In this document: piece by piece, positions 21,594-63,206 of the stretch | Numbering within the stretch: the stretch's first letter is position 1 | How the letters are laid out: each line of letters opens with the position of its first letter | From: a virus | Length of the DNA stretch: 64,000 nt | Virus record (IMG/VR): IMGVR_UViG_3300027704_000017 | Location: 1 to 64,000 of that record | Reading direction: 5' to 3' (one strand) | Program-made: the position numbers and the translations under genes | Notes under the pieces: model-generated | Told to the model about the DNA's origin: nothing | Seen by the model: only the letters and a program-made list of their open reading frames with translations | Database searches by the model: none

Positions 21594-23264
21594 ATGACTA
21601 TTAAGGTGCACCACGGTGGGAATCTCGTAGAGCCCACGCAGATTATTGTAAAGGGTGCTTCTGGCACTCTTCGTGCAGTTAACTTCGTCTTAGCAAAAAC
21701 CGCAAACACCTTTCTTACTGCGTGGCAAGGGATCTACTCGACTAATCGAGGGACTACTACTGCCTTTAATACTTCAACCGCTTTTACTACTACGTTCAAT
21801 ACCAGTGCTACTACTAATGTAAACACTACTACTGCGTATGACACTACTTTTGATACCACCATAGCTACTAGCGTAAGCACTACGACTACTTTTGACACAG
21901 TATTTGATACAAGCCTTATCACCGCTAAAAGCACCTCTACCGCTTTCAATACCACCTTTGCTACTAGCTTAGCAACAACAGTTGGCACCTCTACCGTATA
22001 CCTTACTACCTTTGAGACTACTCGGGCAAGTAACACAGTTTACGAAACTACTAGAGGCACTAGTAAGTCTACTACGACTACTTTTGTAACGGCATTCGAC
22101 ACAAGTTTGGGTACTTCTCGTAGCACTACCTCTACTTTTGCAACTAATTTTGCTACTAGTACCTCTGTGACAACAGCTACAGTGTATAATACTACACGCG
22201 CTACCTCTACAAGTCGCACCACAACGTTTGATACAGCGTTTCAAACCTCTAATATTACTACAGTGGCTACGCTTACTTCAAGAGCTACAGGTACGAGTAA
22301 AGCTACTGCAACTGTATATAATACTACACTAGCTACGGCTACGAGTAGTATTACTGCAAGAGGGACAACTACTGTATATAATACTACTCTAAGTACTACT
22401 ACTGCGTATACTACTACTTTCAATACGGCTTCTGTATTCGTAACTCAGCGAGCAACCACTACTACTTATAATACATCTTATAATACTGCTATAGCTACGG
22501 GACGTAGTACAACTACAACTTTTACAACTGCTACTACTCGTGGTACTACTACTGCTTTCAATACTACGACTACCTTTAACACGTCGAAAGCTACAACTAC
22601 TACATATACCTCTTCATTTAACACCGGCAGAGCAACTAGTAAAGCTACGGCAACTTCGAGAAATACAGTATATACGTCTACTTTTGGAACCTCTCGGGGT
22701 ACTGCTACCAGTGTTGCAACTGCTACAGCCTATACTACTGCTACCACTTTTAACACGAGTAGGGCTACTACGAGTGTATTTAATACTGCCCGTAATACTG
22801 CTGAGAGTCGTAATACTACTACTAGTAGAAACACGGGTACAACGTTTGGAACTACTACAGCTTATGTAACTAATAGTGTATTTGGTACAAGTATAAGTAC
22901 TGCTGAGAGTCGTAATACTATCACTAGTAGAGGTACCTCTACAGCGTTTGGAACTACTACAGCTTATACTACCGGTACTACGTTTAATACAAGTATAAGT
23001 ACTGCTGAGAGTCGTAATACTACTACCAGTAGAGGCACCTCTACAGCGTTTGGAACTACTACAGCTTATACTACCGGTACTACGTTTAATACCAGCAGAA
23101 ACACATTGGAAACTCGTAACACCGCTCGTAACACGGCTGAGAGTCGTAACACTGCGACCAGCAGAAACACATTGGAAAGTCGTAACACCGCTCGTAACAC
23201 GGCTGAGAGTCGTAACACTGCGACCAGCAGAAACACATTGGAAAAACACATTGGAAAGTCGTAA
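21594..23264 (+). CDS. Threonine-rich repeat fibre protein, N-terminal part (frame broken at 23244)
   Basis: This encodes 556 residues as read. After a ~45-residue unique N-terminus (IKVHHGGNLVEPTQIIVKG) the protein is almost entirely degenerate short repeats dominated by Thr, in which [NGA]-T pairs recur at 4- and 6-residue spacing and aromatic residues recur in between (units such as FNTS, TTAYTT, AESRNT). The last ~60 residues before the break are exact 22-residue repeats. A 13-bp duplication at 23231-23256 shifts the frame, and the ORF ends a few codons later. Without it the gene would run on to 25974 as one protein of about 1455 residues. I know of no family for it. Confidence 0.8.
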   Translation: MTIKVHHGGNLVEPTQIIVKGASGTLRAVNFVLAKTANTFLTAWQGIYSTNRGTTTAFNTSTAFTTTFNTSATTNVNTTTAYDTTFDTTIATSVSTTTTFDTVFDTSLITAKSTSTAFNTTFATSLATTVGTSTVYLTTFETTRASNTVYETTRGTSKSTTTTFVTAFDTSLGTSRSTTSTFATNFATSTSVTTATVYNTTRATSTSRTTTFDTAFQTSNITTVATLTSRATGTSKATATVYNTTLATATSSITARGTTTVYNTTLSTTTAYTTTFNTASVFVTQRATTTTYNTSYNTAIATGRSTTTTFTTATTRGTTTAFNTTTTFNTSKATTTTYTSSFNTGRATSKATATSRNTVYTSTFGTSRGTATSVATATAYTTATTFNTSRATTSVFNTARNTAESRNTTTSRNTGTTFGTTTAYVTNSVFGTSISTAESRNTITSRGTSTAFGTTTAYTTGTTFNTSISTAESRNTTTSRGTSTAFGTTTAYTTGTTFNTSRNTLETRNTARNTAESRNTATSRNTLESRNTARNTAESRNTATSRNTLEKHIGKS

Positions 23265-23310
23265 CACCGCTCGTAACACGGCTGAGAGTCGTAACACTGC
23301 GACTAGCAGA
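23091..23310 (+). repeat. 66-bp tandem repeats in the fibre gene
   Basis: Near-identical 66-bp units (22 codons) start at 23091, 23157 and 23223. The next begins at 23302, displaced by the extra 13 bases. This is the most recently amplified part of the repeat array. Confidence 0.9.
23231..23256 (+). repeat. 13-bp exact tandem duplication causing a frameshift
   Basis: AAACACATTGGAA occurs twice in succession (23231-23243 and 23244-23256), while the neighbouring 66-bp units have it once. Thirteen bases shift the frame by one and split the fibre gene. Confidence 0.92.
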
Positions 23311-25974
23311 AACACTACTACTAGCTATAATACAGCGAAAAATACAACTACTAGCTATAACACCGCTCGTAACACCGCGGAGAGTCGTACCACTGCGACC
23401 AGTAAAAACACTACTACTAGCTATAATACAGCGAAAAATACAACTACTAGCTATAACACCGCTCGTAACACCGCTGAGACCCGTAGCACTAGTACAGTTA
23501 AAGGTACACTCACTTCGTTTAATACAGCGAAAAATACAACTACTAGCTATAATACAGCGAGAAATACAAGTACTAGCTATAATACAGGTCGTGGCACATA
23601 TAGAGGTACGTCTAGAACAACTACGGCCTCATACAGCGCAGACCAATATAGCAGGTCCTCGCCGGTGACGTCATCATCATACTTCTGGAGACATAACGGA
23701 CTCATTCCCAACCAGGCGTATCTTATATGGGCGGGGGTTGATAAGTCTCCTACTGCAATTCCTTACACGGCTACTAGTTTTGCGAATGCCGATGGGTACA
23801 CGTACTATAAAAGGGCTTTAGTCGAAAATGTCGCTGGTAGTTTTAAAGGTACCGGATTCACGGAGAATTATTATAGAATAAGAAGAAGACTTACTAATGC
23901 CTCTTATACTACAAGCTTTGTAACAAGCTATCTTACTACTTTTGGTACGAGTAAAAACACTTCAACTACTTTTGGTACGAGTAAGAATACTTCAACTACT
24001 TTTGGTACAAGCAGAAATACTACTACGTCCAAGAATACAACTACAGCCTATACTACTGCAACTACTTTTGGTACGAGTAAGAATACTGCAACTACTTTTG
24101 GTACGAGTAAGAGTACTTCAACTACTTTTGGTACAACTACAGCCTATACTACTGGAACTACTTTTGGTACGAGTAAGGCTACTTCAACTACTTTTGGTAC
24201 AAGTAAGGCTACTTCAACTGTTTTTGGTACCTCTACTGCGTATACTACTGCTACTACTTTTGGTACTACTTATACTACTAACACTGTATTTGGTACTGCT
24301 ACTGCGTATACTACTGCTACTACTTTTGGTACTACTTATACTACCAACACTGTATTTGGTACTGCTACTGCGTATACTACTGCTACTACTTTTGGTACTA
24401 CTTATACTACGGGCACTACTTTTAATACTAGTCGTAACACTGCTGAGTCTCGTACTACTGGAACGAGTAGAAACACTAGTACGGCCTTTGCTACTTCTAC
24501 AGCGTATGTAACTAATAGTGTGTTTAATACTAGTCGTAATACTGCTGAGTCTCGTACCACTGGAACGAGCAGAGGTACTACTACGGCCTTTGCTACTTCT
24601 ACAGCATATGTAACTACGAGTGTATTTAATACTGCCCGTAATACTGCTGAGTCTCGTACTACTGGAACGAGTAGAGGTACTACTACGGCCTTTGCTACTT
24701 CTACAGCGTATGTAACTAATAGTGCGTTTAATACAAGTATAAGTACTGCTGAGTCTCGCACGACTTCTACTAGTAGGAACACGGGTACTGCTTTTGCAAC
24801 TTCTACAGCGTACACTACGGCTACTACCTATAATACTAGTCTCGCAACTACTACTACCTATAATACTGCTCTCAATACGGCAGAAAGTAGAAATACTAGT
24901 AGTGTATTTGGTACCTCTACCGCTTTTAACACAGGTATAGTTACAACTAGAGGCACTACTTTTAATACCACTACAGCCTATACTACTACCTTTGGAACAA
25001 GTATTATTACAGACCGTGCTACTACTACAGTCTATGCTACTACACTAGGAACACTAACTTCTAGAAGCACTGTCAGCACCTTTGGTACAAATACTACTCG
25101 TAGCAGTACAACTACATTTACTACTACCTTTGTTACTGCTAATGCTACAACAAGAGCTACAACTTCCGTATTTAACACTAGTATTGCAGTTTCTACAAAC
25201 AGAGGCACAAGCAAAGCTACGACTACTACGTTTAATACGTCTAGAGCTAGTACTACTACGTATACTACTACTTTTAATACTACTACTACGTTTAATACTA
25301 GTAAGAATACTACTACGTTGTTTAATACAACTACTGCGTTTAATACTACGACTACATATACTACTGCGTTTGATACTGCATTAGGTACAGCTAGAACTAC
25401 TACTTTTAATACGACTACTACGTTTAATACAACGCATAATACTACGACTACGTTTAACACAACTACTGTGTTTAATACTACTATTGCTACTACTACAGCT
25501 TTTACCACTACTTTTGGTACTTCCGTAGCCACTACGCTTGCGACAACTACCTCGTATAATACAGTATTCAATACTAGTTTAGCAACTACTACTACTTTTA
25601 ATACATCTTTGAGTACCTCAAAGAGCACTACTAGTGCTTATGACACAACTTTCGATACTAGTGGAGGAACTACAAGAGCTACTACCACTACATATACAAC
25701 GTTGTTTGGAACTTACGCAGCCACAACACTTGCTACAACCACTGCGTTTACTACGGCCTTTGCAACAAGCTTAGGCACAACTAAGACTACGGTCACTCCG
25801 GGCGCTGTAACAGTATATGAGACTTTAGCTACCACTACTCTTGCTACAGCTACATCTGTTTCTACTAATACTGTAATTTATGAAAGAGTTACAGGTACGG
25901 GAGCTACTACCGAAGTTTTATCAGGGTCAGATTATAACACATCATATTGGGATGGATCACAATGGACAGAATAG
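23251..25974 (+). CDS. Threonine-rich repeat fibre protein, C-terminal part
   Basis: This continues the previous gene in the +1 frame. TTG 23251 is the first possible start after the duplication, but no ribosome-binding site precedes it. The frame is also open to an ATG at 23050 that reads a shadow frame. A non-repetitive island (about 23620-23900, with WRHNGLIPNQAYLIWAGVD) interrupts the Thr-rich repeats, which then resume for over 600 residues. The C-terminus is unique (GSDYNTSYWDGSQWTE) and may be a tip or trimerisation segment. The repeats probably form an extended, regular shaft. Confidence 0.75.
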   Translation: MESRNTARNTAESRNTATSRNTTTSYNTAKNTTTSYNTARNTAESRTTATSKNTTTSYNTAKNTTTSYNTARNTAETRSTSTVKGTLTSFNTAKNTTTSYNTARNTSTSYNTGRGTYRGTSRTTTASYSADQYSRSSPVTSSSYFWRHNGLIPNQAYLIWAGVDKSPTAIPYTATSFANADGYTYYKRALVENVAGSFKGTGFTENYYRIRRRLTNASYTTSFVTSYLTTFGTSKNTSTTFGTSKNTSTTFGTSRNTTTSKNTTTAYTTATTFGTSKNTATTFGTSKSTSTTFGTTTAYTTGTTFGTSKATSTTFGTSKATSTVFGTSTAYTTATTFGTTYTTNTVFGTATAYTTATTFGTTYTTNTVFGTATAYTTATTFGTTYTTGTTFNTSRNTAESRTTGTSRNTSTAFATSTAYVTNSVFNTSRNTAESRTTGTSRGTTTAFATSTAYVTTSVFNTARNTAESRTTGTSRGTTTAFATSTAYVTNSAFNTSISTAESRTTSTSRNTGTAFATSTAYTTATTYNTSLATTTTYNTALNTAESRNTSSVFGTSTAFNTGIVTTRGTTFNTTTAYTTTFGTSIITDRATTTVYATTLGTLTSRSTVSTFGTNTTRSSTTTFTTTFVTANATTRATTSVFNTSIAVSTNRGTSKATTTTFNTSRASTTTYTTTFNTTTTFNTSKNTTTLFNTTTAFNTTTTYTTAFDTALGTARTTTFNTTTTFNTTHNTTTTFNTTTVFNTTIATTTAFTTTFGTSVATTLATTTSYNTVFNTSLATTTTFNTSLSTSKSTTSAYDTTFDTSGGTTRATTTTYTTLFGTYAATTLATTTAFTTAFATSLGTTKTTVTPGAVTVYETLATTTLATATSVSTNTVIYERVTGTGATTEVLSGSDYNTSYWDGSQWTE

Positions 25975-26117
25975 AAAAAGAACTAAAAGGTATGTCTCAT
26001 AGACTAGAGACTACTATTGAAATAATCATGGAGCACTTTAGAGAGACAGAAGAGCGTATAGAAGAACTTGAAGACATCATACAGGAGCTAAGAGATGGCC
26101 TTGCAAAAACTGGCTGA
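25962..26117 (+). CDS. Small coiled-coil protein
   Basis: This encodes 51 residues, starting inside the end of the fibre gene and overlapping the next start by 23 bases. It is highly charged, with heptad-like spacing (RIEELEDIIQELRD), so it is probably a coiled coil. It could be a trimerisation factor or chaperone for the fibre, or resemble the small coiled-coil lysis accessory proteins; the sequence does not decide. Confidence 0.65.
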   Translation: MDRIEKELKGMSHRLETTIEIIMEHFRETEERIEELEDIIQELRDGLAKTG

Positions 26118-26970
26118 AAATGATGTACTTGGAAATAGTGCTGCACACTTCTTTAAATCGGGGAACATAGTAAGGGGCTCAGAGATTGATGGTCTTGCAG
26201 AACTGAAGGACCTTCTCCCTACTAAAGGCCCTAATGGAACTAATGTAGAGTATGATATATGGTATGATATGGCAGACCAAGAGAGAATTCATGGTTATAT
26301 GTATACAGATGCAATGGCTAAGTTCTTATATATTAGAGCTGCAGGAGCGTATTGGACACATAAGATTATGCAACAAGCCTCTAAAGAGCCTATCACAGAA
26401 GAAGGAGAAAGAATTTTTCAAGACCTTGCAGAGAATAGTGTAGACAAGTACAAACTTCGTAAAGCTAGATCCCAGCATGATTTTGTTATTTTTCTTCCTG
26501 GTACTAATATAATCAAAGAAGCTTTAGACTGGGATAAGATGGAGAACGCTATAAAACAAGGGGCTAAGTTAAAGTGCCACCCAATTACAGCTCCTGGTCT
26601 AGTTGCCAACCTTAAACACAGGTACGGGGAAGAGAACATACTAGATAAGAAGCTCTCCGGTCACGAACTGATGGCTGGAGCAAGTATTGTAGGATGTTGC
26701 GAGAATTCAGAGATGGGTATTGTATCCCTAGCTCAGGGCAAAAAGACTTACTTGTTTGGCCACGGACATAAACATTTAACATATAGTGCTCTATACAATA
26801 CTATATGGAAAGGGGGCAAGGCTGATGTAAATAAGCTAAAATCTATACTCTCTGCCAAGTATTCGGGAATGATACCAGTAATATCAGAAAGCCCTCAAGA
26901 GTATATTAACTCATACTTTAACCACTACAAGGAGATGCCTCATGTCAAACCTAGAAATAATAATCCTTGA
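26095..26970 (+). CDS. Putative glycosyltransferase-like protein (GT-B pattern, uncertain)
   Basis: This encodes 291 residues with AGGAG upstream. The C-terminal half has the pattern of capsule-type GT-B transferases: a strand ending VIFLPGT, then LKCHP, a helix, YGEENIL, an ASIVGCCENSEMG segment like the usual 'S-S-E-A' region, and KKTYLFG. The N-terminal half is not recognised. It overlaps the next gene by 29 bases. A role in sugar decoration of virion or host surface is an inference, and other functions are possible. Confidence 0.55.
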   Translation: MALQKLAENDVLGNSAAHFFKSGNIVRGSEIDGLAELKDLLPTKGPNGTNVEYDIWYDMADQERIHGYMYTDAMAKFLYIRAAGAYWTHKIMQQASKEPITEEGERIFQDLAENSVDKYKLRKARSQHDFVIFLPGTNIIKEALDWDKMENAIKQGAKLKCHPITAPGLVANLKHRYGEENILDKKLSGHELMAGASIVGCCENSEMGIVSLAQGKKTYLFGHGHKHLTYSALYNTIWKGGKADVNKLKSILSAKYSGMIPVISESPQEYINSYFNHYKEMPHVKPRNNNP

Positions 26971-27658
26971 GTGTAATGACTTAACGGCTTTAACAGTAAA
27001 TTCAATAAAGAAAAATATGCCCAGAGCTAAGTATAAAGTTGTACCAGCGAAAGGAAAGAGTAAGATAGGTACTGCTTTATCTCACGCAAAGGGCATAACC
27101 TTAGTAGTTACGAGCGGCTTAGTTCTTAATATTAAACATGGAGACTTGCCTCCTGAAAGTAAACTAGAGCAATATGCCTTGTCTGTTAGTAGAGAGGGGG
27201 TTTATGTAGACCATCCTAAGCACTCCACTTCTTACAACTTAGTAAATAGCAATATAACTAAGGGCTTTATTGACCTCTGTATCTTCATAATCAATCCTGC
27301 TAAGTGGTTTGAGATACCTACTAAAGACTCAGGAGTTGTAGGAGATAAAAAGACTTTATTTATGCCTAGATATATTAATCACAAGTCAGATCCTATACTG
27401 AAGGACTGTATAGGGGCTTACGAGGCATTTAAATACGGTATGGCAGGAGAGACTGCTGCAGTGTATAATTACTTACCTAATTTAATCTCTGGTAAAGCAA
27501 CACCGATAGAGACATTTGCATATTGTTTTGATAAGCTGGAAGAGTATTCGGAAGGATTACCGGAATATAAAAGAAAACAAGTACTTAATCTTGCACAAAA
27601 AACTAAAACAAGAGTAGGTAAGCTAAGGCCTCAGCTATTGGCCACTAAAGGAGAATAA
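26942..27658 (+). CDS. Hypothetical protein paired with the GT-B-like gene
   Basis: This encodes 238 residues. The first 65 residues alternate strand and helix (EIIILECND, ITLVVTSGLVLNI) like the nucleotide-binding half of a GT-A transferase, but no clear DxD is seen. The rest is unrecognised, with a basic helical C-terminus. The overlap with its neighbour suggests the two products act together. Confidence 0.6.
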   Translation: MSNLEIIILECNDLTALTVNSIKKNMPRAKYKVVPAKGKSKIGTALSHAKGITLVVTSGLVLNIKHGDLPPESKLEQYALSVSREGVYVDHPKHSTSYNLVNSNITKGFIDLCIFIINPAKWFEIPTKDSGVVGDKKTLFMPRYINHKSDPILKDCIGAYEAFKYGMAGETAAVYNYLPNLISGKATPIETFAYCFDKLEEYSEGLPEYKRKQVLNLAQKTKTRVGKLRPQLLATKGE

Positions 27659-37817: not shown

Positions 37818-37846
37818 ATTATACATCAAAATTGGGTTAAAGTCAA
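37818..37846 (-). promoter_or_regulatory. Sigma70-type promoter TTGACT-17-TATAAT (minus)
   Basis: The -35 is at 37841-37846 and the -10 at 37818-37823, with 17 bases between and AATTC upstream. It overlaps the end of the cupin gene and should drive the recombination and ribonucleotide reductase operon down to the terminator at 29440. Confidence 0.85.
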
Positions 37847-38634
37847 GAATTATTTTTTTCAAAGTCATAATAGTCTCGGTCTATTGGTCGCTTTCCTGCA
37901 TTTTCCATTAGAGGCACTGAGATTGAAACTCGGGCCGAGGCAGGGGTTGCTTTGTGAAACATTCCAGAGGGAATATATAATAAATCCCCTGGCTCTAGTA
38001 TTGTATCAATTACGGGAGTGTACTTACTTGCCTCTTTATCAGTCATTGTAAGTCGAGTAGTAAACTTCTTTCTGCCAGCTACGATCTCACTCCTGGCGAA
38101 TACATTATATACTTTCCAGTGTACCCTGCCTATGGCGTGTACTAGGAAGTTATCGTCTTGATCAGCATGAGTCTCGAAAGAAACCGCATTCTTCTTTCCA
38201 GAGCAGTAGAAGTGTGCGTCTGCTGCACTATTCTTGAATCTTGCTTCCAGAGCATTACCTACAGCGGACATATTGGGACTCATCATAGATGCTTTGGTAA
38301 GTATTATACTACCTCCTTCTCCCCACATTTTGCCTACTAGTTGTTTATCATACCAATCATTTTTAGTCCATGCAGGTTGAGGTCGATTATGACAATTTCC
38401 CTTTTCCATACATAGTTTGTCTCCCTTAGGGGTAATTACCTGCAACCCCGCAGAGGCTCTATCATTAGCTACGTACTGGGAGATCTGCTCCCAGCTAGTA
38501 ATATTACTAAAGAAGTTTTTCTTAAAGTTGTCTCCTCTAATAACCAAAGCCTTCTTGCCTTTCACAGTAGACATAAAGGCTTCGTCTGTCATGGGGGCTA
38601 TTAAGTCTTCCCATGTAAATTCAGGTCTTATCAT
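37843..38634 (-). CDS. JmjC-type cupin (cupin_4 / ribosomal-oxygenase-like) 2-oxoglutarate oxygenase
   Basis: This encodes 263 residues from ATG 38634, which overlaps the helicase stop (ATGA). The cupin_4 pattern is visible: KALVIRG near the N-terminus, then an HxD metal pair (His156, Asp158) in THADQDDNF, HAIGRVHWKVYN, EPGDLLYIP, and a distal His227 in GMFHKA. This family includes bacterial protein hydroxylases that act on ribosomal protein Arg/His residues; the phage substrate is unknown. It sits at the end of an operon that also holds two radical SAM enzymes and a dehydrogenase. Confidence 0.8.
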   Translation of the reverse strand: MIRPEFTWEDLIAPMTDEAFMSTVKGKKALVIRGDNFKKNFFSNITSWEQISQYVANDRASAGLQVITPKGDKLCMEKGNCHNRPQPAWTKNDWYDKQLVGKMWGEGGSIILTKASMMSPNMSAVGNALEARFKNSAADAHFYCSGKKNAVSFETHADQDDNFLVHAIGRVHWKVYNVFARSEIVAGRKKFTTRLTMTDKEASKYTPVIDTILEPGDLLYIPSGMFHKATPASARVSISVPLMENAGKRPIDRDYYDFEKNNS

Positions 38635-39914
38635 AAGTATTTTATCTCCCAACCCTGTTTCATGTAGAACCCCATACGGTTAGAGGCCTGCTTTCTAGCG
38701 GTATTACCTCTTAAGTGTATGTCTACAACTACAGGGTCTATCTTTCCTTCTCTTAATCTTATCACTCGTCCTACAAGCTGGGTGAGTAAGGGTTCGTTGT
38801 TAACAGGTGTTCCTAGTATCAAACAGCTAAGAGAGTCTACTGATATACCTTCTGAAAATATAGACTGTGTACCATATAGTACGTTCTTATTTCCAGACAA
38901 TACTTCTTCTACTAAGGCTTCACGTTCTTCGTGAGAAACGTCTCCAGTCACACATACTGCTCTGTCCCCCGTTAACTCAGAACACGCTTTGAGAAAACTA
39001 ACTCTGTCACTTACTACTAGAACTTTGTGTCCTCGTGCCGCATACGCTGCTGCTAACATTGATACAGTATGTCGGTACTCTTCATCGTTTGATAATTTTG
39101 TAACTCTATTTGCCCAAGGAGTTTTAGCTCCATCCATAAAGCGGATCTCCGAATGAACAGTATGCACAGTAGGCGTCATATAGTTCTCTTTAGGGGGCTG
39201 AAATAGAGTGTTACCAAAGTAATCTCTGAATACTACGTGCTTACCATCCTTACGTTCTATGGTTCCTGATAACCCTATCTTATAGCGACAATGGTTTGTA
39301 TCAAGAACTTTGGAAAAGGTCGGACTACTTACGTGATGCATTTCATCCAAGATGATAGTGCCAAACTCTTTACGAATCTTGTCTAGGTTTCGGTAAAGTG
39401 TTTGGGTATTCCCAATAACGATAGGAGCATCAAGTTCAAATCTACCACTGCCTATGATGCCAGGTTCAAAACCATAGACTTTCTTTACTTCTTTCGCCCA
39501 TTGATTACGTAGAGCTACAGTGTGGGTAACAACAAGTGTTTTCTGACCTAACTTACCCGCGATTGCTAAACCTGTAAAAGTCTTTCCCCAGCTAACCCAT
39601 GCGTTGATTATAGCGTTGTCTTCGATCTTGTCATAAACCTCTTTCTGGCTTGGTCGTAACTCGAACCTAAACTCAGGAAAGTCTACTGGTATGTTTACGC
39701 GCTTATCTACTATATCGTAATTGGACGGTATCAAATCAATACGACCTGCGGGTATAGAGACGAGTCCATTGCGTATAATACCCATATTCTTAATCATTAG
39801 AGGGGGGTCTAACGGGTTATGTGTCGGTATTGCATAAGTAAGTTCTTTATCTATTTTATCTTGCAATTCGGCACTACAATCCATGTATATTCTGTTACTA
39901 ATTACTGCTTTCAT
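38631..39914 (-). CDS. SF2 DNA helicase, UvsW/XPB-like
   Basis: This encodes 427 residues. Helicase motifs: SWGKTFTG (Walker A variant), LVVTHTVALRNQW (Ia), LDEMHH (II), GLSGT (III), LLTQLVGRVIR (VI). T4 UvsW unwinds branched intermediates and helps switch from origin to recombination-driven replication. It overlaps the dehydrogenase gene by 17 bases. Confidence 0.9.
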   Translation of the reverse strand: MKAVISNRIYMDCSAELQDKIDKELTYAIPTHNPLDPPLMIKNMGIIRNGLVSIPAGRIDLIPSNYDIVDKRVNIPVDFPEFRFELRPSQKEVYDKIEDNAIINAWVSWGKTFTGLAIAGKLGQKTLVVTHTVALRNQWAKEVKKVYGFEPGIIGSGRFELDAPIVIGNTQTLYRNLDKIRKEFGTIILDEMHHVSSPTFSKVLDTNHCRYKIGLSGTIERKDGKHVVFRDYFGNTLFQPPKENYMTPTVHTVHSEIRFMDGAKTPWANRVTKLSNDEEYRHTVSMLAAAYAARGHKVLVVSDRVSFLKACSELTGDRAVCVTGDVSHEEREALVEEVLSGNKNVLYGTQSIFSEGISVDSLSCLILGTPVNNEPLLTQLVGRVIRLREGKIDPVVVDIHLRGNTARKQASNRMGFYMKQGWEIKYL

Positions 39915-40440
39915 TTTGTAGACTCCAAAGGTAGATGCCCTTATCGTGCTGTAACATCTTGTAGTTGTACCTGTCTTGCATAGTTAAGTCTGGTATATCT
40001 ACATCTGTGCTCATAATAGTTTTGATCATCTCGTACACATGACCCCACGCAAGGCTGGGGAGCTTGCTGTCCATAAGACCTAGATTTAATGTAGTAATTC
40101 TACACTGTTTGCTTAGGCAGTTGTAAGTTAGATTATCTGCATAGTGATTCAATGCCGCTTTCTGAGCTGCATACATATATCCACTAGAGATATTTGGTTG
40201 AGCAGCCCTAGAGGATATATTTATTATGAGCTTACTTGTATCATTTTGCCACTCATTGAACACATACTCTAATAGCTCTACTTGTTTGAAGCCTACGTGA
40301 GCATAGTTGATAAAGACATCGTATTCATCGAGTACAACCTCGCCCCTTAGTATCTCTTCGATTCTGCAGCTAGTAGTAGAAAGAAGTCTCTCATGAAGCA
40401 AACTTGCAAGGCTACTTCTACCTGTTATTAGAATTTTCAT
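39898..40440 (-). CDS. Short-chain dehydrogenase/reductase-like protein
   Basis: This encodes 180 residues, shorter than the usual 240-250. The N-terminal TGRSSLAS is a variant Rossmann TGxxxGxG. The NYAHVG segment stands for NNAG, IINISS carries the Ser, and YAAQK matches the catalytic YxxxK. It should bind NAD(P) and oxidise or reduce a small molecule. It overlaps the radical SAM gene upstream by 23 bases, so the two are probably made together. The substrate is unknown. Confidence 0.78.
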   Translation of the reverse strand: MKILITGRSSLASLLHERLLSTTSCRIEEILRGEVVLDEYDVFINYAHVGFKQVELLEYVFNEWQNDTSKLIINISSRAAQPNISSGYMYAAQKAALNHYADNLTYNCLSKQCRITTLNLGLMDSKLPSLAWGHVYEMIKTIMSTDVDIPDLTMQDRYNYKMLQHDKGIYLWSLQNESSN

Positions 40441-41332
40441 AGTGCTCCTTTAGTAAATCAAACGAGGGCTTTCCAAAGAGAGACCCGTCTACACTACACT
40501 TATTACAAGGAGAGTTGCTTCTATCTCCTTTCATTAACTTCTTCCGTATCTTAGTCATGGGCTTGCCCAGCCAAACGCTCGAGAGATCCTGCATTAGTAG
40601 GTTACCTACTACGTGCTCGCGTCCCCAGTCATTGCTACAGAACAGCACATCACCATTCCAATCTACAAACATTTTATAGAAGGGGTAGTGACAAGGCTTA
40701 CCTTGTAAAGCAGTAACACTACTTTCTTCTACTCCTACCCAATCCATAACACCGCTTCTATTGTTCAAAATTAAACCATGCTTTTCAAAATCTCCCCAGT
40801 GCATACGGTACTTAAACTTACTTGTAGGGACATCTCGCATAACTTTATCGAAATGCTCCATCTGCTCTATACCATCATACAGATTAATATAGAGTAAGTC
40901 CAGGCCGCATACATCAAACAAATCTCTAGCGAGTTCGTAGGTCAGCTTATCCCCGTTGGTATTACACTCTACTGTAGCGTCGGGCAGGCTATGTTTAAAT
41001 ATCTGCACTATCTGAGGAAAGTCAGGGTTAAGTAGGTTCTCTCCGAACCCGCTGAGAGATATCTTGCCTCTAAAATCATTAGCAGCAAGCTCTGTAGCTA
41101 TTATCAGTGCCCCTTTAGGACTCATATGAAGGTTCCTGTTGGGGAATACTTCAGGATTGTGCCTAGGGCAAAATACACAGGTTCTATTACACAACTCGGT
41201 AGTATTTACTTCTACCGTAAGTATGGAACGCAGAAGGGAATCTGTTGGATTGTTAGTCCAGTGCAGGGTTTCCTGATCTCGTCTATGTTTTAAAAAGTCA
41301 TGCTGATCAACAGCTACTGTTGGGATAATCAT
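40418..41332 (-). CDS. Radical SAM protein with SPASM-like C-terminal cluster (paralogue A)
   Basis: This encodes 304 residues. The radical SAM CxxxCxxC is C48-C52-C55 in ELCNRTCVFCPR. LSGFGENLLNP matches the GGE region, and VECNTNGD the usual strand. Cysteines in KPCHYP, LFCSNDWG and SPCNKCS form an auxiliary SPASM/twitch cluster. SPASM enzymes usually modify peptides or proteins, though some act on small molecules. A paralogue lies two genes away. The start overlaps the PhoH stop (ATGA). Confidence 0.85.
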   Translation of the reverse strand: MIIPTVAVDQHDFLKHRRDQETLHWTNNPTDSLLRSILTVEVNTTELCNRTCVFCPRHNPEVFPNRNLHMSPKGALIIATELAANDFRGKISLSGFGENLLNPDFPQIVQIFKHSLPDATVECNTNGDKLTYELARDLFDVCGLDLLYINLYDGIEQMEHFDKVMRDVPTSKFKYRMHWGDFEKHGLILNNRSGVMDWVGVEESSVTALQGKPCHYPFYKMFVDWNGDVLFCSNDWGREHVVGNLLMQDLSSVWLGKPMTKIRKKLMKGDRSNSPCNKCSVDGSLFGKPSFDLLKEHYENSNNR

Positions 41333-41988
41333 AAGTTTAATTCATTCTTAGCTATAATGTAGTCTTTAACAAACTCAGACCTAACAATGTCTTCTACTTG
41401 GAAGTCAATGAAGGTAAAGCGTTCCATTCGTTTTAGTACACGAATAAAATCTTGTAGGCCGTTAGCCTTTAAGTCTGCCTGTCTAAAGTCTCCGCAGAAC
41501 ATGATTCTACAGTTCTCACCCATACGAGTGATGATAGAATCTAATTCATGAAAACTCATGTTTTGGCACTCATCAATAAGGATGACTGCATCTCTTAGTG
41601 TTATACCTCTAATAAAAGAAGTAGTCATAAAGTGTACTAAACTCTTGTTCTTCAGGATCTCATACGCATCCCCTCTTCCAAACAAGTCTATAGCAATATC
41701 TTTATAAGGCTCCTCATATACTGAACCTTTTTCTTTCTCAGTTCCCGGTAGAAATCCTATGTCTCGGGTTGGTACTGCGCTACGAATAATTACTAAGTTC
41801 TGATACTTACCCTTCGCCATATCATCGTATGCTAGATAGGAGGAGATAAATGTTTTACCTGTACCTGCCAATCCGTGCAATACTAAGTTTTTCTCTGACT
41901 CAAATGCTGTCAGCTGATTTCTGGTTAATGGTTCGATCTCCCTTAGCTCCAAGCTCGCGCCAGCGAGTGTCTTCCGTTTTTTAGCCAT
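41329..41988 (-). CDS. phoH: PhoH-like ATPase
   Basis: This encodes 219 residues from ATG 41988, one base after the previous stop, giving the usual phage PhoH start MAKKRKTL; a longer upstream start is possible. Walker A GLAGTGKT and Walker B ILIDECQNM are clear. PhoH proteins are common in marine phages; the role is unsettled (an RNA helicase or RNase-linked ATPase has been proposed). It lies between the two radical SAM genes. Confidence 0.92.
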   Translation of the reverse strand: MAKKRKTLAGASLELREIEPLTRNQLTAFESEKNLVLHGLAGTGKTFISSYLAYDDMAKGKYQNLVIIRSAVPTRDIGFLPGTEKEKGSVYEEPYKDIAIDLFGRGDAYEILKNKSLVHFMTTSFIRGITLRDAVILIDECQNMSFHELDSIITRMGENCRIMFCGDFRQADLKANGLQDFIRVLKRMERFTFIDFQVEDIVRSEFVKDYIIAKNELNL

Positions 41989-41989
41989 A

Positions 41990-42481
41990 TTATACTTTTC
42001 TTCTAGTGTCTTTGAGTTTCGTTGCCGAATACTCATAAAGCATCCACGGTAGCTTATGCAGATGCAAAACCCCTGCCCATACCATTTCTGGGTCGGGAGG
42101 GCGTGGGATTGTAAAAGGAACAGTACTTCCTTTTACAAAAACGAGAGAGCCAGTACCTTTTTTCTCTACTCGTTTTATTTTTAGATATTTTAGTGGCAAG
42201 AACCTAGTTTTTATATAGGTAAAGGGCACGCCCTTGTTATCTATAAAGTAGCTAGTGCTTTGCTTTAAAACACCATTAGGCGTACTTATCATCTTCCTGA
42301 GAGGCACTAAATCATTGAAAGGAGATTGCAATCTTCGTGCGCCTAGTGTTGCGCCAGATTGATTCCTATCATCAAGGACTTGCCCGTCTAAGAATAGTAT
42401 GCCGTCTGCCAGCTCCCAGTTTCCAGAATCTAATAGAAATATAGGGAACTCTAAATTGTGTATTGTATTATACGTTATCAT
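41990..42481 (-). CDS. Hypothetical protein between PhoH and radical SAM paralogue B
   Basis: This encodes 163 residues, beta-rich at first (FPIFLLDSGNWELADGILFLDG), then basic, with a Pro-rich IPRPPDPEMVW segment and a conserved-looking VLHLHKLPWMLYEY end. Coupled by ATGA to the radical SAM gene. It could be a partner or substrate of the radical SAM enzymes, but this rests on position only. Confidence 0.7.
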   Translation of the reverse strand: MITYNTIHNLEFPIFLLDSGNWELADGILFLDGQVLDDRNQSGATLGARRLQSPFNDLVPLRKMISTPNGVLKQSTSYFIDNKGVPFTYIKTRFLPLKYLKIKRVEKKGTGSLVFVKGSTVPFTIPRPPDPEMVWAGVLHLHKLPWMLYEYSATKLKDTRRKV

Positions 42482-43419
42482 TCTTCTACAAAAATTGGTC
42501 GCATCTCTACGCCCTTTAGCTCATCATCAAAGCGAGCACCCTTCCTAGAGGAGGGACAAATTATAAACTTATAGGGGTCTTGGTTTTTTACTTTCTTAAT
42601 CACCCGTAGAGACTGAGGTCTGCCTCCCTGCTTATCATCACAAACAGAGCAAGGAAGTATTGCGTTCCTATCTCCGTTTAAAAGCCTCCATCTTATCCTG
42701 TTTAATTTATCATCGTTCTCATACATATCCATTAAGCTACGCTCATGAACATTGCCAATTATTATCTGGTACTTCCAGTCATTACAGCACATCTGATAGT
42801 TGCCATGATAGTCTATAAAAATTTGTCTCATGGGGTGGAAGCAAGGCTCCTTAACACTCTCTTCACTAAACACGCCTGCTCTGTTATTGAATAGGTAGGT
42901 AAAGTAGAGACCGTCTTCCTTGGTAGTGTCTTGTTGTGGACCTAGCTTATTCATCTCTTCTACACTGAGCGTGTCTGGCTTAAAGTAATGTTCTATACGC
43001 TTACCGTTAGGCAGCTTAACATACTTTTTTCGCATGAAGTCAGAATCTTCTTGGTTAGTATAAGTATTAAGTATTAGCTCGTCTATCTTGGCGTATACGC
43101 CCCACAACTTATCTATTCTATAGCCATTTGTGGTTACTCTTACTTCCCACTTGCGTGGTTGTGCAGTAACTAAGTCTACTACTTTATCAAACTTATTATG
43201 CAGAGTAGGCTCACCCCTTCCCGCTAGTTCTATAACTCCTTTGAAATCGATAGCTCGTAGCTCTGCCAGTACTATCTCTATAGTCTCTAAGCTCATATGC
43301 TCGTTTACGTTAGGGTAGGACTTAAACGTGCGAGGACAAAAGTAACAAGTACGATTGCACAAGCCCGTCAAGTCTAGGTCTACCCTGTAGAGGTAGTGGG
43401 ATACGTCTTTAGGCCCCAT
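42478..43419 (-). CDS. Radical SAM protein with SPASM-like C-terminal cluster (paralogue B)
   Basis: This encodes 313 residues from ATG 43419, which overlaps the polymerase stop by 11 bases; the longer frame to 43530 lies inside the polymerase gene. C21-C25-C28 in LCNRTCYFCPR bind the radical SAM cluster. ELAGRGEPTLH is the GGE motif. EPCFHP, QMCCNDW and LPCSVC give the auxiliary cluster. It shares CNDW and LLNGDR-PC-C signatures with paralogue A, so the two arose by duplication or are related enzymes for related substrates. Confidence 0.85.
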   Translation of the reverse strand: MGPKDVSHYLYRVDLDLTGLCNRTCYFCPRTFKSYPNVNEHMSLETIEIVLAELRAIDFKGVIELAGRGEPTLHNKFDKVVDLVTAQPRKWEVRVTTNGYRIDKLWGVYAKIDELILNTYTNQEDSDFMRKKYVKLPNGKRIEHYFKPDTLSVEEMNKLGPQQDTTKEDGLYFTYLFNNRAGVFSEESVKEPCFHPMRQIFIDYHGNYQMCCNDWKYQIIIGNVHERSLMDMYENDDKLNRIRWRLLNGDRNAILPCSVCDDKQGGRPQSLRVIKKVKNQDPYKFIICPSSRKGARFDDELKGVEMRPIFVEE

Positions 43420-53098: not shown

Positions 53099-53828
53099 GT
53101 ACGAAGTCCTTAATCATAGGAAAGAACTTATTAATTTCATATGCACACTCTCGTGCAATATTCATATGCTCTTTCTGAGTACCTGGTGTAGTGCGTACAT
53201 CTACAAAGTGAATCCACGATCTTACAGTTCCTGACATATAAAGACGAGTCTTTGTTAAGCCTTCTGGAAGTACGGCTCTGGCCTGCTCTTTAGCGATACC
53301 ATTAGCTAAAGCCCAGTTATATGCACTAGAGGCGGCATCAATTACGCCCTTCTGTTGTGCTATCCAATGCTTATGTAAGAGATCGTCATCCGTTTCAACA
53401 CTGTTCTGTCTGTTCTTAGCGTCTTGTAAGCGACACTCTCGTAGCTCAAAAGGATAGCCCATCTCTTTTGGGTCTGCATATCTCTGGCTAAACTCCTGAA
53501 AAGCAAAACTACGGTGACGCACGATCTGGTGAGCAATATCCCTAGTAGTGTTAATCTCTATAGTAATACTAGCCATCTCAAAAGGTGACCAGTGGTTATG
53601 TTTAATTAGATACCGTACTAACTTCTCTGAAGTTTCAGTATTATACTGGTTACTAGGGTTTGATACTTGTTTAATTAGATACCGTACTAACTTCTCTGAA
53701 GTTTCAGTATTATACTGGTTACTAGGGTTTGATACTCTAGCCATCATTGCGATATCTTCTAATATGTTCTCTGCTGATGCTGATATTAATCTTACTGTCA
53801 TTTTATTGTCCTGAAATTCTGTTGTCAT
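53088..53828 (-). CDS. thyX: Flavin-dependent thymidylate synthase
   Basis: This encodes 246 residues. The ThyX signature RHRSFAFQEFSQRY is present, with HNHWSPFEMAS (FAD/dUMP region) and a C-terminal ARAVLPEGLTKT motif. It makes dTMP from dUMP using FAD, NADPH and methylene-tetrahydrofolate, complementing the ribonucleotide reductase. A 69-bp exact tandem duplication repeats 23 residues (VSNPSNQYNTETSEK and following) near residue 30-75, in frame. It overlaps the upstream gene by 26 bases. Confidence 0.94.
   Translation of the reverse strand: MTTEFQDNKMTVRLISASAENILEDIAMMARVSNPSNQYNTETSEKLVRYLIKQVSNPSNQYNTETSEKLVRYLIKHNHWSPFEMASITIEINTTRDIAHQIVRHRSFAFQEFSQRYADPKEMGYPFELRECRLQDAKNRQNSVETDDDLLHKHWIAQQKGVIDAASSAYNWALANGIAKEQARAVLPEGLTKTRLYMSGTVRSWIHFVDVRTTPGTQKEHMNIARECAYEINKFFPMIKDFVHGD
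53599..53736 (-). repeat. 69-bp exact tandem duplication inside thyX
   Basis: 53599-53667 and 53668-53736 are identical. The insertion is in frame (23 codons) and lies just before the HNHWSPFE motif. ThyX proteins normally carry this segment once. Confidence 0.95.
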
Positions 53829-54454: not shown

Positions 54455-55183
54455 CTATTCTTTCGTTGCTTCGGATCTTCCGTGTGTCCATACGACCCTA
54501 GGGGTAGGAATGAATTTGCTTTTATCTTCAAAGGTTCCTTTCCAATAAGTGTTGGGAAAGGTTAAAAGGTCTTTGTATATACGCTGTTCTACTTCAGGAT
54601 CGTGAGCAGGATGTTGATCGCCTTCAGAAGGTCTCCACCCTACATAGTCTTGTCTTAGCAAGGGTATGTGCCAACTGGTTGCAATTGAGTCTTTCCCTGC
54701 ACCGTCATCGTGGTACACAAACCAGTTACGAAAACAATCGAAGTTAACCCATGTAAGACTTTTCCAACCAGAAACTCGGTTAGCCAACCAATGACTTGTA
54801 ACACACCCTGCACTTAGTCGACGCCCTTCTTGTATACCATAATCTTCTGCTAGTGCACAAATCTCTTCTTCCGTATACATCTGTAGATGATCTTCTTTTA
54901 ATCTACCAAACTTCTTAGAGTACAGAGAATTGTTGAAGAGTATCTTTGTGTCCTTTGGGATATTAGTAACACTAGCCTGTCTTAACTGTCCTGTGACCCA
55001 AATATCTGTATAGTCACCTATATACCTGCCAGTCTTGTCGTTCGGGATACCTTTACCAAAGCGCAGAACTACGTCATGCTCGTTGATATAGTTACCATTT
55101 TCTACAGTCAGGGCGTTAAGATCGTTCCCTACTAGGATTATATCCTTGCCTCTGACGTACTCATTAAAATCTTCTAAAGTCAT
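54455..55183 (-). CDS. Sialyltransferase-like glycosyltransferase (GT29 pattern)
   Basis: This encodes 242 residues from ATG 55183 (AGAGGAC upstream, overlapping the previous gene). The N-terminal IILVGNDLNAL, followed by HDVVLRFGKG, matches the large sialyl motif pattern, with DIWVTGQLR next and a SAGCVTSHW region resembling the small motif. GT29-like proteins occur in marine phages, where the acceptor is unknown. It is read with a second glycosyltransferase and the lysis genes. Surface-sugar modification of virion or host is inferred. Confidence 0.65.
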   Translation of the reverse strand: MTLEDFNEYVRGKDIILVGNDLNALTVENGNYINEHDVVLRFGKGIPNDKTGRYIGDYTDIWVTGQLRQASVTNIPKDTKILFNNSLYSKKFGRLKEDHLQMYTEEEICALAEDYGIQEGRRLSAGCVTSHWLANRVSGWKSLTWVNFDCFRNWFVYHDDGAGKDSIATSWHIPLLRQDYVGWRPSEGDQHPAHDPEVEQRIYKDLLTFPNTYWKGTFEDKSKFIPTPRVVWTHGRSEATKE

Positions 55184-55805
55184 TATAGTCCTCTGCGAAT
55201 TCTTCTGTGGCATAGTCCCCGTAGAGAGGTGTACCATCTGTAAAGTGTACTGCTACTGGGTCTTTTAGAAAGGAATAATAACCTACTAGATAATTAAATG
55301 TCTCTGGTAGGCTTCCTATTTCTCCTGTCCAAGTCATACGATGAAGCCAGGAAGCTTCTGCTTCGTTTATACACTCTACTGTTAGTTGTTTGAGGTGGGG
55401 GTGCGAGCAGTCGAAGTACATTAGAGAAGACCACCATTTTCTAGGGTACCACTCGTTCTTGTGTTTCGAGAACTTCATATCCTCACGTACTTGCTTTACT
55501 AGATGTTTTACGCAGTTTACTGCTACATCTGGTTTTATGTGTAGTAGTATCTTAGCAGGGTCTTTTCTCCAGATGAAATCTCCATCACAGAAAAGGGCAC
55601 CGCCTTGATAGTTACATAGATAAGGAACTAAAAAGCGAGTATAAGTAAACTCAGTGGAACCGTCTTCGTCCCTTGAGTACCCATGCTCGCTTTGAAGTTG
55701 TGCGCGATCCAGAAGTATAACTTCGTGACCGAATTGTTTAATAGACTCCACACAAGCCTGTGTGTTCTCAGGCTGTCTGGAGTCGTGTCCTACAAATATC
55801 CTCAC
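55164..55805 (-). CDS. Glycosyltransferase (GT-A fold, DxD motif)
   Basis: This encodes 213 residues with a GTG start that overlaps the holin stop (GTGA). It begins with IFVGHDSRQP, carries FTYTRFLVPYL and the metal motif FCDGDF (DxD), then a HFTDGTPLYG segment near the end. This is the layout of GT8-like or capsule-type transferases that use nucleotide sugars and Mn2+. It is coupled to the GT29-like gene, so the two may act in sequence. Confidence 0.8.
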   Translation of the reverse strand: MRIFVGHDSRQPENTQACVESIKQFGHEVILLDRAQLQSEHGYSRDEDGSTEFTYTRFLVPYLCNYQGGALFCDGDFIWRKDPAKILLHIKPDVAVNCVKHLVKQVREDMKFSKHKNEWYPRKWWSSLMYFDCSHPHLKQLTVECINEAEASWLHRMTWTGEIGSLPETFNYLVGYYSFLKDPVAVHFTDGTPLYGDYATEEFAEDYNDFRRF

Positions 55806-59641: not shown

Positions 59642-59865
59642 ATAAGTGGTGGAGAATCTGGGCTAAATCATTAGGAGAGAAAGTAGGTGAAACTGATAGA
59701 CAAGCAAACACTATTGCCGGTATTAGGAGCGTGTGGTGGTTTACACATATGCTTACTTGTTTGGCAATCATACTTAACGCTATAGCCAATCATGGCTGGG
59801 GACTAATTGGAGCAATCATACTTAACGCTATAGCCAATCATGGCTGGGGACTAATTGGATTCTGA
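59638..59865 (+). CDS. Small membrane protein with duplicated span
   Basis: This encodes 75 residues, with its ATG overlapping the previous stop. A basic N-terminus with KWWRIWAKSLG is followed by a hydrophobic span, then an exact 48-bp tandem duplication that repeats the 16-residue AIILNAIANHGWGLIG. Without it the protein would have 59 residues, close to its neighbour (56). The duplicate adds a second hydrophobic stretch and could change topology. Confidence 0.7.
   Translation: MNKWWRIWAKSLGEKVGETDRQANTIAGIRSVWWFTHMLTCLAIILNAIANHGWGLIGAIILNAIANHGWGLIGF
59764..59859 (+). repeat. 48-bp exact tandem duplication in a membrane-protein gene
   Basis: 59764-59811 and 59812-59859 are identical and keep the frame (16 codons). 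Confidence 0.95.
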
Positions 59866-62565: not shown

Positions 62566-62779
62566 TATGCTCAAGAAGTATAACCACTTCGTACACGAGA
62601 TGTGGAACGCTAACACAGAGGAGCGGCAAGCCTATGGTGAGCCTATCCTCAGTAAGGAAGAATACATACTAGAGAATAATACCTTTCTCGAAGATACTTT
62701 TTGGATAAATCAGTATGGAGATAAGGTTTGGGACGGTGAGAAATACACCGAGCGGAGAAACATAGATGGCGTACAGTAA
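62555..62779 (+). CDS. Small acidic hypothetical protein
   Basis: This encodes 74 residues from ATG 62555 (or the next ATG, 62558). Helical and acidic with many aromatic residues (YNHFVHEMWNANTEERQAYG). It overlaps IscU by 14 bases. No recognised function. Confidence 0.65.
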   Translation: MMSDMLKKYNHFVHEMWNANTEERQAYGEPILSKEEYILENNTFLEDTFWINQYGDKVWDGEKYTERRNIDGVQ

Positions 62780-63206
62780 ACAACTATTAGACCACTACGA
62801 GAACCCACGCAATGTGGGTACAATGGATGAAGATGCTAGTAATGTAGGTACTGGTATGGTTGGAGCACCAGCCTGTGGAGATGTTATGCGTGATGAAGAT
62901 GCTAGTAATGTAGGTACTGGTATGGTTGGAGCACCAGCCTGTGGAGATGTTATGCGTCTTCAGATTAAAGTAGAGAATGATATAATTGTAGATGCTAAGT
63001 TTAAGACTTACGGTTGCGGTAGTGCAATAGCATCTTCAAGTCTTCTTACTGACTGGGTGAAAGGAATGCACCTAGATGATGCTAATCAAGTTAAGAACAC
63101 ACAACTAGCGCAAGAACTAGCATTACCACCTGTGAAGATACATTGTTCCGTACTCGCAGAGGATGCGATAAAGTCAGCCATTCAAAACTACAGAAGTAAG
63201 GGCTAG
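62766..63206 (+). CDS. iscU: Fe-S cluster scaffold protein IscU
   Basis: This encodes 146 residues, very close to gammaproteobacterial IscU from MAYSKQLLDHYENPRNVG to the end. The three cluster Cys lie in GAPACGDVM, TYGCGSAIASSS and PPVKIHCSVLAEDAI, and the Asp and His partners are present. An exact 66-bp duplication (62826-62957) repeats 22 residues including the first Cys motif; without it the length is 124, near the normal 128. The closeness to enterobacterial-type IscU suggests recent transfer from a gammaproteobacterial host. It would supply Fe-S clusters, for which two phage radical SAM enzymes are obvious clients. Confidence 0.92.
   Translation: MAYSKQLLDHYENPRNVGTMDEDASNVGTGMVGAPACGDVMRDEDASNVGTGMVGAPACGDVMRLQIKVENDIIVDAKFKTYGCGSAIASSSLLTDWVKGMHLDDANQVKNTQLAQELALPPVKIHCSVLAEDAIKSAIQNYRSKG
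62826..62957 (+). repeat. 66-bp exact tandem duplication inside iscU
   Basis: 62826-62891 and 62892-62957 are identical, in frame (22 codons), and duplicate the first cluster-binding Cys. Confidence 0.95.

Follow-up and report, generated by a model that had tools for sequence, protein, structure and literature searches.

What would two radical S-adenosylmethionine (SAM) enzymes, a dehydrogenase and a JmjC-type oxygenase do inside the replication operon of a phage? The question is raised by positions 37,843 to 43,419 of the window, by which we mean the first 64,000 nucleotides of the 69,033-base IMG/VR record IMGVR_UViG_3300027704_000017, a T5-like phage whose polymerase is ~44% identical to those of T5-like phages. 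We conclude, with a probability of about 0.6, that the region carries two sugar-tailoring modules, each optional and inherited independently of the other, which belong to a phage-encoded pathway of fiber glycosylation that is probably based on cytidine monophosphate (CMP)-activated ulosonic acids. The region contains seven open reading frames (ORFs), each of which begins with ATG and has no internal stops; the coordinates below use the nearest ATG.

42478..43419, minus strand: RSB, second predicted BtrN-type radical SAM enzyme (Pfam Radical_SAM and SPASM, BtrN profile match)
41990..42481, minus strand: h163 (phrog_4386), 163 residues, kept in relatives without RSB/JmjC or without RSA/SDR
41329..41988, minus strand: PhoH (Pfam PhoH), a core operon gene outside both modules
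40418..41332, minus strand: RSA, predicted BtrN-type (Twitch) radical SAM enzyme (Pfam Radical_SAM and SPASM, BtrN profile match, fold)
39898..40440, minus strand: SDR (short-chain dehydrogenase/reductase), a short (180 residues) NAD(P)-type dehydrogenase and partner of RSA (adh_short 7e-7; YxxxK conserved)
38631..39914, minus strand: superfamily 2 helicase (Pfam ResIII/Helicase_C), a core operon gene outside both modules
37843..38634, minus strand: JmjC-fold oxygenase, partner of RSB (PF08007 JmjC_2, 1e-16; HxD...H motif)

The coordinates bear out the first-pass annotation of this DNA, which had described seven ORFs joined by 4-23-base overlaps or one-base gaps (the gap lies between h163 and PhoH), and Pfam agrees with its recognition of two radical SAM/SPASM paralogs (RSA and RSB are 31% identical), an SDR and a JmjC cupin. 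It had further held that these genes form one coupled unit, and had named their independent occurrence in related phages as the finding that would speak against a single system. Such independence is seen when the genes flanking RSA and RSB are compared among IMG/VR relatives: the region consists of two separable pairs, RSA-SDR and RSB-JmjC, embedded among core replication genes. RSA-SDR without RSB and JmjC is found in ten T5-like contigs in which both sites are covered (e.g. L006 and L014), the converse arrangement occurs in L090-L096, L100, L123, L126 and L130, and both pairs are present in the window, L019 and L084; many of the contigs are incomplete and related, and these counts are not independent. 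RSB and JmjC occupy different operon positions and have identical presence or absence wherever both sites are covered in T5-like relatives. When mapped on a tree built from the concatenated core proteins, the JmjC pattern requires three changes and the SDR pattern one; the patterns were read from the SDR and JmjC labels, and RSA and RSB were assigned by best hits, since the two cross-hit. A single four-enzyme cassette is thus rejected. The conserved core in the relatives comprises the polymerase, h163, PhoH, the helicase, a 133-residue protein and the single-stranded DNA-binding protein; h163, PhoH and the helicase are core operon genes that are present with or without either module. Accordingly, h163, in which a Pfam search gave no domain, was dropped as a candidate substrate or chaperone. 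Because near-identical and diverged relatives share the gene order, the locus is not an assembly accident. Nor is the region self-contained, as had been proposed, because three transferase-like genes and a threonine-rich fiber lie elsewhere in the genome.

Judged by sequence, RSA and RSB are BtrN-type Twitch proteins, and for RSA the predicted fold agrees. BtrN is the top PDB match of profiles built from RSA (1.3e-23), RSB (6e-16) and both together (2.7e-37). The CX3CX2C motif of the SAM cluster is invariant (C48, C52 and C55 in RSA; C21, C25 and C28 in RSB), the auxiliary-cluster cysteines of RSA (C214, C232, C276 and C279) align with cysteines of BtrN at BtrN spacing, and the RSA and RSB alignments conserve four auxiliary cysteines only. 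In addition, an NNR(S/A)G motif (NNRSG in RSA) is aligned with SNRGG of BtrN. When the predicted RSA structure (mean predicted local distance difference test score, pLDDT, of 65) was compared with known folds, BtrN occupied ranks 1-2 (1.4e-11) and SpeY ranks 3-6. BtrN and SpeY oxidize alcohols of aminoglycoside precursors. RSA resembles them in its domain plan, CX3CX2C motif, single four-cysteine auxiliary cluster of the same spacing, NxRxG motif and fold, but it is phage-encoded, has an N-terminal extension and is followed by an SDR; moreover, BtrN and SpeY belong to antibiotic clusters, whereas phage RSA is linked to glycosyltransferases and a fiber.

The two radical SAM enzymes keep different company. 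Of 80 viral loci, 79 have the SDR immediately after RSA, and the remaining locus is at a contig edge. This placement of an NAD(P)H short-chain reductase beside a radical SAM enzyme recalls AprD4-AprD3, a radical SAM diol dehydratase and a reductase that act on a sugar, although AprD4 has a CX3CX3C motif and all aligned RSA sequences have CX3CX2C. RSB, in freshwater T4-like phages, is accompanied by a protein of ~200 residues that shows an HxD...H...R pattern, matches 2OG-FeII_Oxy_3 (2OG, 2-oxoglutarate) weakly and directly follows RSB in 20 of the 26 assessable T4-like loci; in phages of a third kind (L300 and L301) a homolog of this protein is one gene away from RSB. Since the partner is JmjC here and 2OG-type elsewhere, the iron-oxygenase-type partners of RSB come from two different families. 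JmjC matches ribosomal oxygenases of the NO66, MINA and YcfD type, with which the phage protein shares the JmjC_2 cupin and its HxD...H motif. However, those enzymes possess C-terminal dimerization and winged-helix domains, which the phage protein probably lacks because it has 263 residues as compared to 373-489 in the solved structures; it ends ~20 residues past the cupin match. Separately, eight consecutive 2OG-Fe(II) oxygenase genes lie around a JmjC gene in Synechococcus phage S-CREM1 (L159 2310-7800), near a tryptophan halogenase gene.

A genome scan located RSA homologs in bacteria or in contigs binned with bacteria. GFO_IDH_MocA oxidoreductases adjoin them in seven loci, and other neighbors include NeuB and uridine diphosphate-N-acetylglucosamine 2-epimerase (L167), a SIS-CBS protein and a PfkB kinase (L168), a DegT aminotransferase (L171), a GT29 gene (L173), and a CMP-sugar synthetase with a gene resembling 3-deoxy-D-arabino-heptulosonate 7-phosphate (DAHP) synthase (L176). 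These contexts are surface-sugar, largely ulosonic-acid, clusters. BtrN-like homologs occur in 2 of 289 Alphaproteobacteria in a class-wide survey, so the family is rare in bacteria. Several of these and related loci have features of their own. The cluster in L176 (6000-11660; a Pelagibacteraceae single cell) contains shikimate-dehydrogenase-like, DAHP synthase, BtrN-like, GFO_IDH_MocA, enolase-family and CMP-sugar synthetase genes, and an unusual CMP-activated cyclitol or ulosonate is a possible product. In a contig that was binned with Verrucomicrobiales and is probably phage DNA, the RSA homolog is followed by a P-loop kinase-like gene in place of the SDR (L163 1891-3242), and in a T4-like contig a DruA-like (PF14236) gene stands directly upstream of RSA (L082 8767-9900). 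Campylobacter phage CP20 (L157 1462-8243) carries a BtrN-like gene with three other radical SAM genes, an annotated glycine amidinotransferase and an aminotransferase-like gene; this cluster has the look of a distinct pathway for a small molecule or a sugar.

A sugar substrate is also suggested by two glycosyltransferase genes that lie side by side in the window, 14 kilobases (kb) from RSA-SDR:

55164..55805, minus strand: GT8-like GT-A glycosyltransferase (CDxDF motif; phrog_28018)
54455..55237, minus strand: GT29-like (sialyltransferase motif) glycosyltransferase (homology to a gene of contig L025)

The L025 group of contigs has the order GT8-like, RSA, SDR, GT29-like. The GT8-like protein of the window matches the L025 gene that adjoins RSA at 44%, and a gene of an RSA-containing bacterial cluster at 37% over 150 residues. 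The GT29-like protein, which alone gave no match in a Pfam search, is related at 35% to the L025 gene with a Pfam GT29 match (5.5e-7), and its family profile matches the mammalian sialyltransferase ST3Gal I (7e-6 over ~50 residues). Scanning 80 loci of the GT29-like family, we found GT8 adjoining in 59 and no more than four genes away in a further 15. Eleven of the 80 contain RSA-SDR, beside GT29 or one gene from it, with GT8 on the other side in nine; two of the 11 are without the GT8 end, and three loci are ordered JmjC, GT8, RSA, SDR, GT29. The GT8-GT29 pair is found in phages with RSB only as well, both T5-like (G012 and G013) and T4-like (G044 and G050).

The likely acceptor of the sugar is encoded in the tail region, followed directly by a third transferase-like gene:

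21594..25974, plus strand: threonine/serine-rich repeat fiber, ~36% threonine (two ORFs here, tail region)
26095..26970, plus strand: transferase predicted to fold like 3-deoxy-D-manno-oct-2-ulosonic acid (Kdo) transferases, KxHP motif (AlphaFold pLDDT 90)
26942..27658, plus strand: unknown protein; similar-looking proteins stand after the Kdo-transferase-like gene in other phages

A threonine-rich protein (24-44% threonine, the definition being at least 22%) lies directly upstream of the Kdo-transferase-like gene in 68 of 80 loci, as compared to 6 of 962 background genes from 12 comparison records. The fiber gene of the window is broken at 23050-23264, where two ORFs overlap, and because the near-identical contig L237 has one intact ORF of 1469 residues, the break probably arose when the repeats were misassembled. 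The six best PDB fold matches of the 26095 protein are the Kdo transferases KpsC, WbbB and KrKA (8e-6 to 9e-4; template modeling score ~0.36-0.45). The likeness lies in the predicted fold: a 27-row profile of the protein gave no PDB sequence match at E<=1, and a Pfam search with its L025 homolog gave none either. A further difference from KpsC, WbbB and KrKA is that the phage gene follows a threonine-rich fiber.

Other genomes join these elements to one another. In G017 and L386 the GT29 locus meets, in convergent orientation, the block of the Kdo-transferase-like gene and threonine-rich fiber; in G017 the order is NrdA, NrdB, GT8, RSA, SDR and GT29, after which come, convergently, a gene of 316 residues, the Kdo-transferase-like gene and the fiber. 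An unrelated T4-like phage with RSB (G044) encodes threonine-rich proteins of 2035 and 1319 residues, the second of which is followed by the Kdo-transferase-like gene, and also has the GT8-GT29 pair. Among cultured phages, a threonine-rich protein is located just upstream of the Kdo-transferase-like homolog in Vibrio phage KVP40 (L401 4998-6660) and Caulobacter phage Lullwater (L402 5330-6852). In Lullwater gp41 is the threonine-rich protein and gp42 the Kdo-transferase-like one; in KVP40 the genes concerned are KVP40.0254 and KVP40.0256. A Kdo-transferase-like gene and the GT8-GT29 pair also occur in Stenotrophomonas phage DLP6, where no threonine-rich ORF adjoins the former when TAG is read through.

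From the observed linkage, families, folds and co-distribution of these genes we infer a substrate, an order of reactions, an acceptor and a benefit. RSA would take a hydrogen from a sugar carbon via the SAM-derived radical and, like BtrN, hand the second electron on to the auxiliary [4Fe-4S] cluster, yielding a ketone; alternatively, it may dehydrate a diol as in AprD4. The adjoining SDR would then use NAD(P)H to reduce the product, so that BtrN-like oxidation would lead to epimerization of the sugar and the diol-dehydratase variant to its deoxygenation. RSB would perform related chemistry with its partner Fe(II) oxygenase, whether JmjC or 2OG-type. The sugar would most likely be an ulosonic acid (of the Kdo or nonulosonic type) or a glycan bearing one, and the GT8-like, GT29-like and Kdo-transferase-like proteins would build the ulosonic-acid glycan on the threonine-rich tail fiber, which might confer adsorption specificity, escape from binding defenses or fiber stiffness. 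More tentatively, and at somewhat less than even odds, the window may represent a widespread, undescribed system in which CMP-ulosonic acids of the host are placed on mucin-like threonine-rich fibers by Kdo-transferase- and sialyltransferase-like enzymes, while swappable modules of a radical SAM enzyme with a reductase or an oxygenase vary the sugar and so diversify host recognition or escape.

Several observations weigh against this pathway. In the window, 14-30 kb separate the modules from the transferases and the fiber, the mean pLDDT of the RSA model is low, the JmjC protein of L134 lacks the HxD motif in the alignment, the oxygenase does not adjoin RSB in 6 of the 26 T4-like loci, and the link of RSB-JmjC to a glycan depends on co-occurrence in few lineages. 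Furthermore, the RSA-containing records G026 and G031 (146 and 153 kb) are without the threonine-rich fiber, GT29 and Kdo-transferase-like genes, and the fragments G021 (86 kb) and G041 (51 kb), which also carry RSA, are without these and GT8, so RSA-SDR may act elsewhere too. Such phages without the fiber are compatible with the principal alternative, that the modules alter the host surface polysaccharide (lipopolysaccharide core or O-antigen) during infection, for instance to block superinfection, and not the virion. The surface-sugar clusters around the bacterial homologs of RSA fit it as well, and in a hypervariable region of pelagimyophages GT8 and other glycosyltransferase genes close to tail fibers were interpreted by the authors as changing the host O-antigen, with radical SAM cassettes seen there too, a likeness to the genes studied here (PMC7029224); the relevant passages of that report do not mention an RSA-SDR pair or a threonine-rich fiber partner. 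We nevertheless consider it unlikely, as it leaves unexplained why a threonine-rich protein so regularly precedes the Kdo-transferase-like gene.

Two further explanations appear far less probable. Modification of nucleobases, DNA or tRNA would suit the position of the genes among replication genes, and certain pathways of phage DNA hypermodification do employ radical SAM and oxygenase enzymes. But the closest relatives by fold and sequence are sugar dehydrogenases, no base-hydroxymethylase or DNA glucosyltransferase was recognized among the proteins scanned, and elsewhere the same pairs adjoin glycosyltransferases or lie near the capsid gene; this reading was dropped. The annotation's broader suggestion of a pathway that modifies a protein, nucleotide or sugar is narrowed, with a sugar most likely and no supporting genes recognized for the nucleotide route. 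Marginally less probable still is the maturation of a ribosomally synthesized and post-translationally modified peptide or the hydroxylation of a ribosomal protein. Peptide maturases often contain SPASM domains and the JmjC matches are to ribosomal oxygenases, but the four auxiliary cysteines in BtrN spacing make no provision for a second auxiliary cluster, Pfam shows no precursor-binding domain, h163 is independent of the modules, and JmjC is shorter than the solved ribosomal oxygenases and probably lacks their C-terminal domains. On these grounds both ideas were discarded.

To our knowledge, phage glycosylation has been described mostly for DNA and for a few mycobacteriophage virion proteins. 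In the latter, phage glycosyltransferases modify the C-termini of capsid and tail-tube proteins (Freeman 2023, as cited in PMC12619734). The fiber pathway proposed here would likewise employ phage-encoded glycosyltransferases for structural proteins, with gene context pointing to the acceptor, but would differ from that account in its threonine-rich fiber, Kdo-transferase-like fold and radical SAM tailoring. A literature search returned nothing direct that joins radical SAM enzymes, phages and fiber glycosylation. If the proposal is correct, many ocean phages may coat their host-binding fibers with unusual sugars. Phage surface biology would then gain a new layer, in which dozens of phages from marine and freshwater habitats pair a dedicated transferase with mucin-like threonine-rich fibers and exchangeable modules contribute radical SAM sugar chemistry, and some of the radical SAM, 2OG-oxygenase and IscU genes of marine phages that have so far gone unexplained would be accounted for. 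The occurrence of the threonine-rich protein and the Kdo-transferase-like gene in cultured phages makes its central claim directly testable.

A final gene of the window may be connected to the radical enzymes:

62766..63206, plus strand: IscU/NifU-like iron-sulfur (Fe-S) scaffold (phrog_8429)

IscU is present in 7 of 51 records, many of them fragments, and all seven contain RSA. This is suggestive only, and IscU may supply clusters to the radical enzymes. The earlier link of IscU to these genes survives in its distribution and not as part of a self-contained system; the occurrence of Fe-S scaffold genes with radical SAM genes in marine phages has already been reported (PMC5332604). The iscU gene also contains one of three exact two-copy tandem duplications in the window, at 62826-62957 (66 bases), the others being at 53599-53736 (69 bases, in a thyX-like gene) and 59764-59859 (48 bases, in a small ORF); all three look like assembly artifacts.

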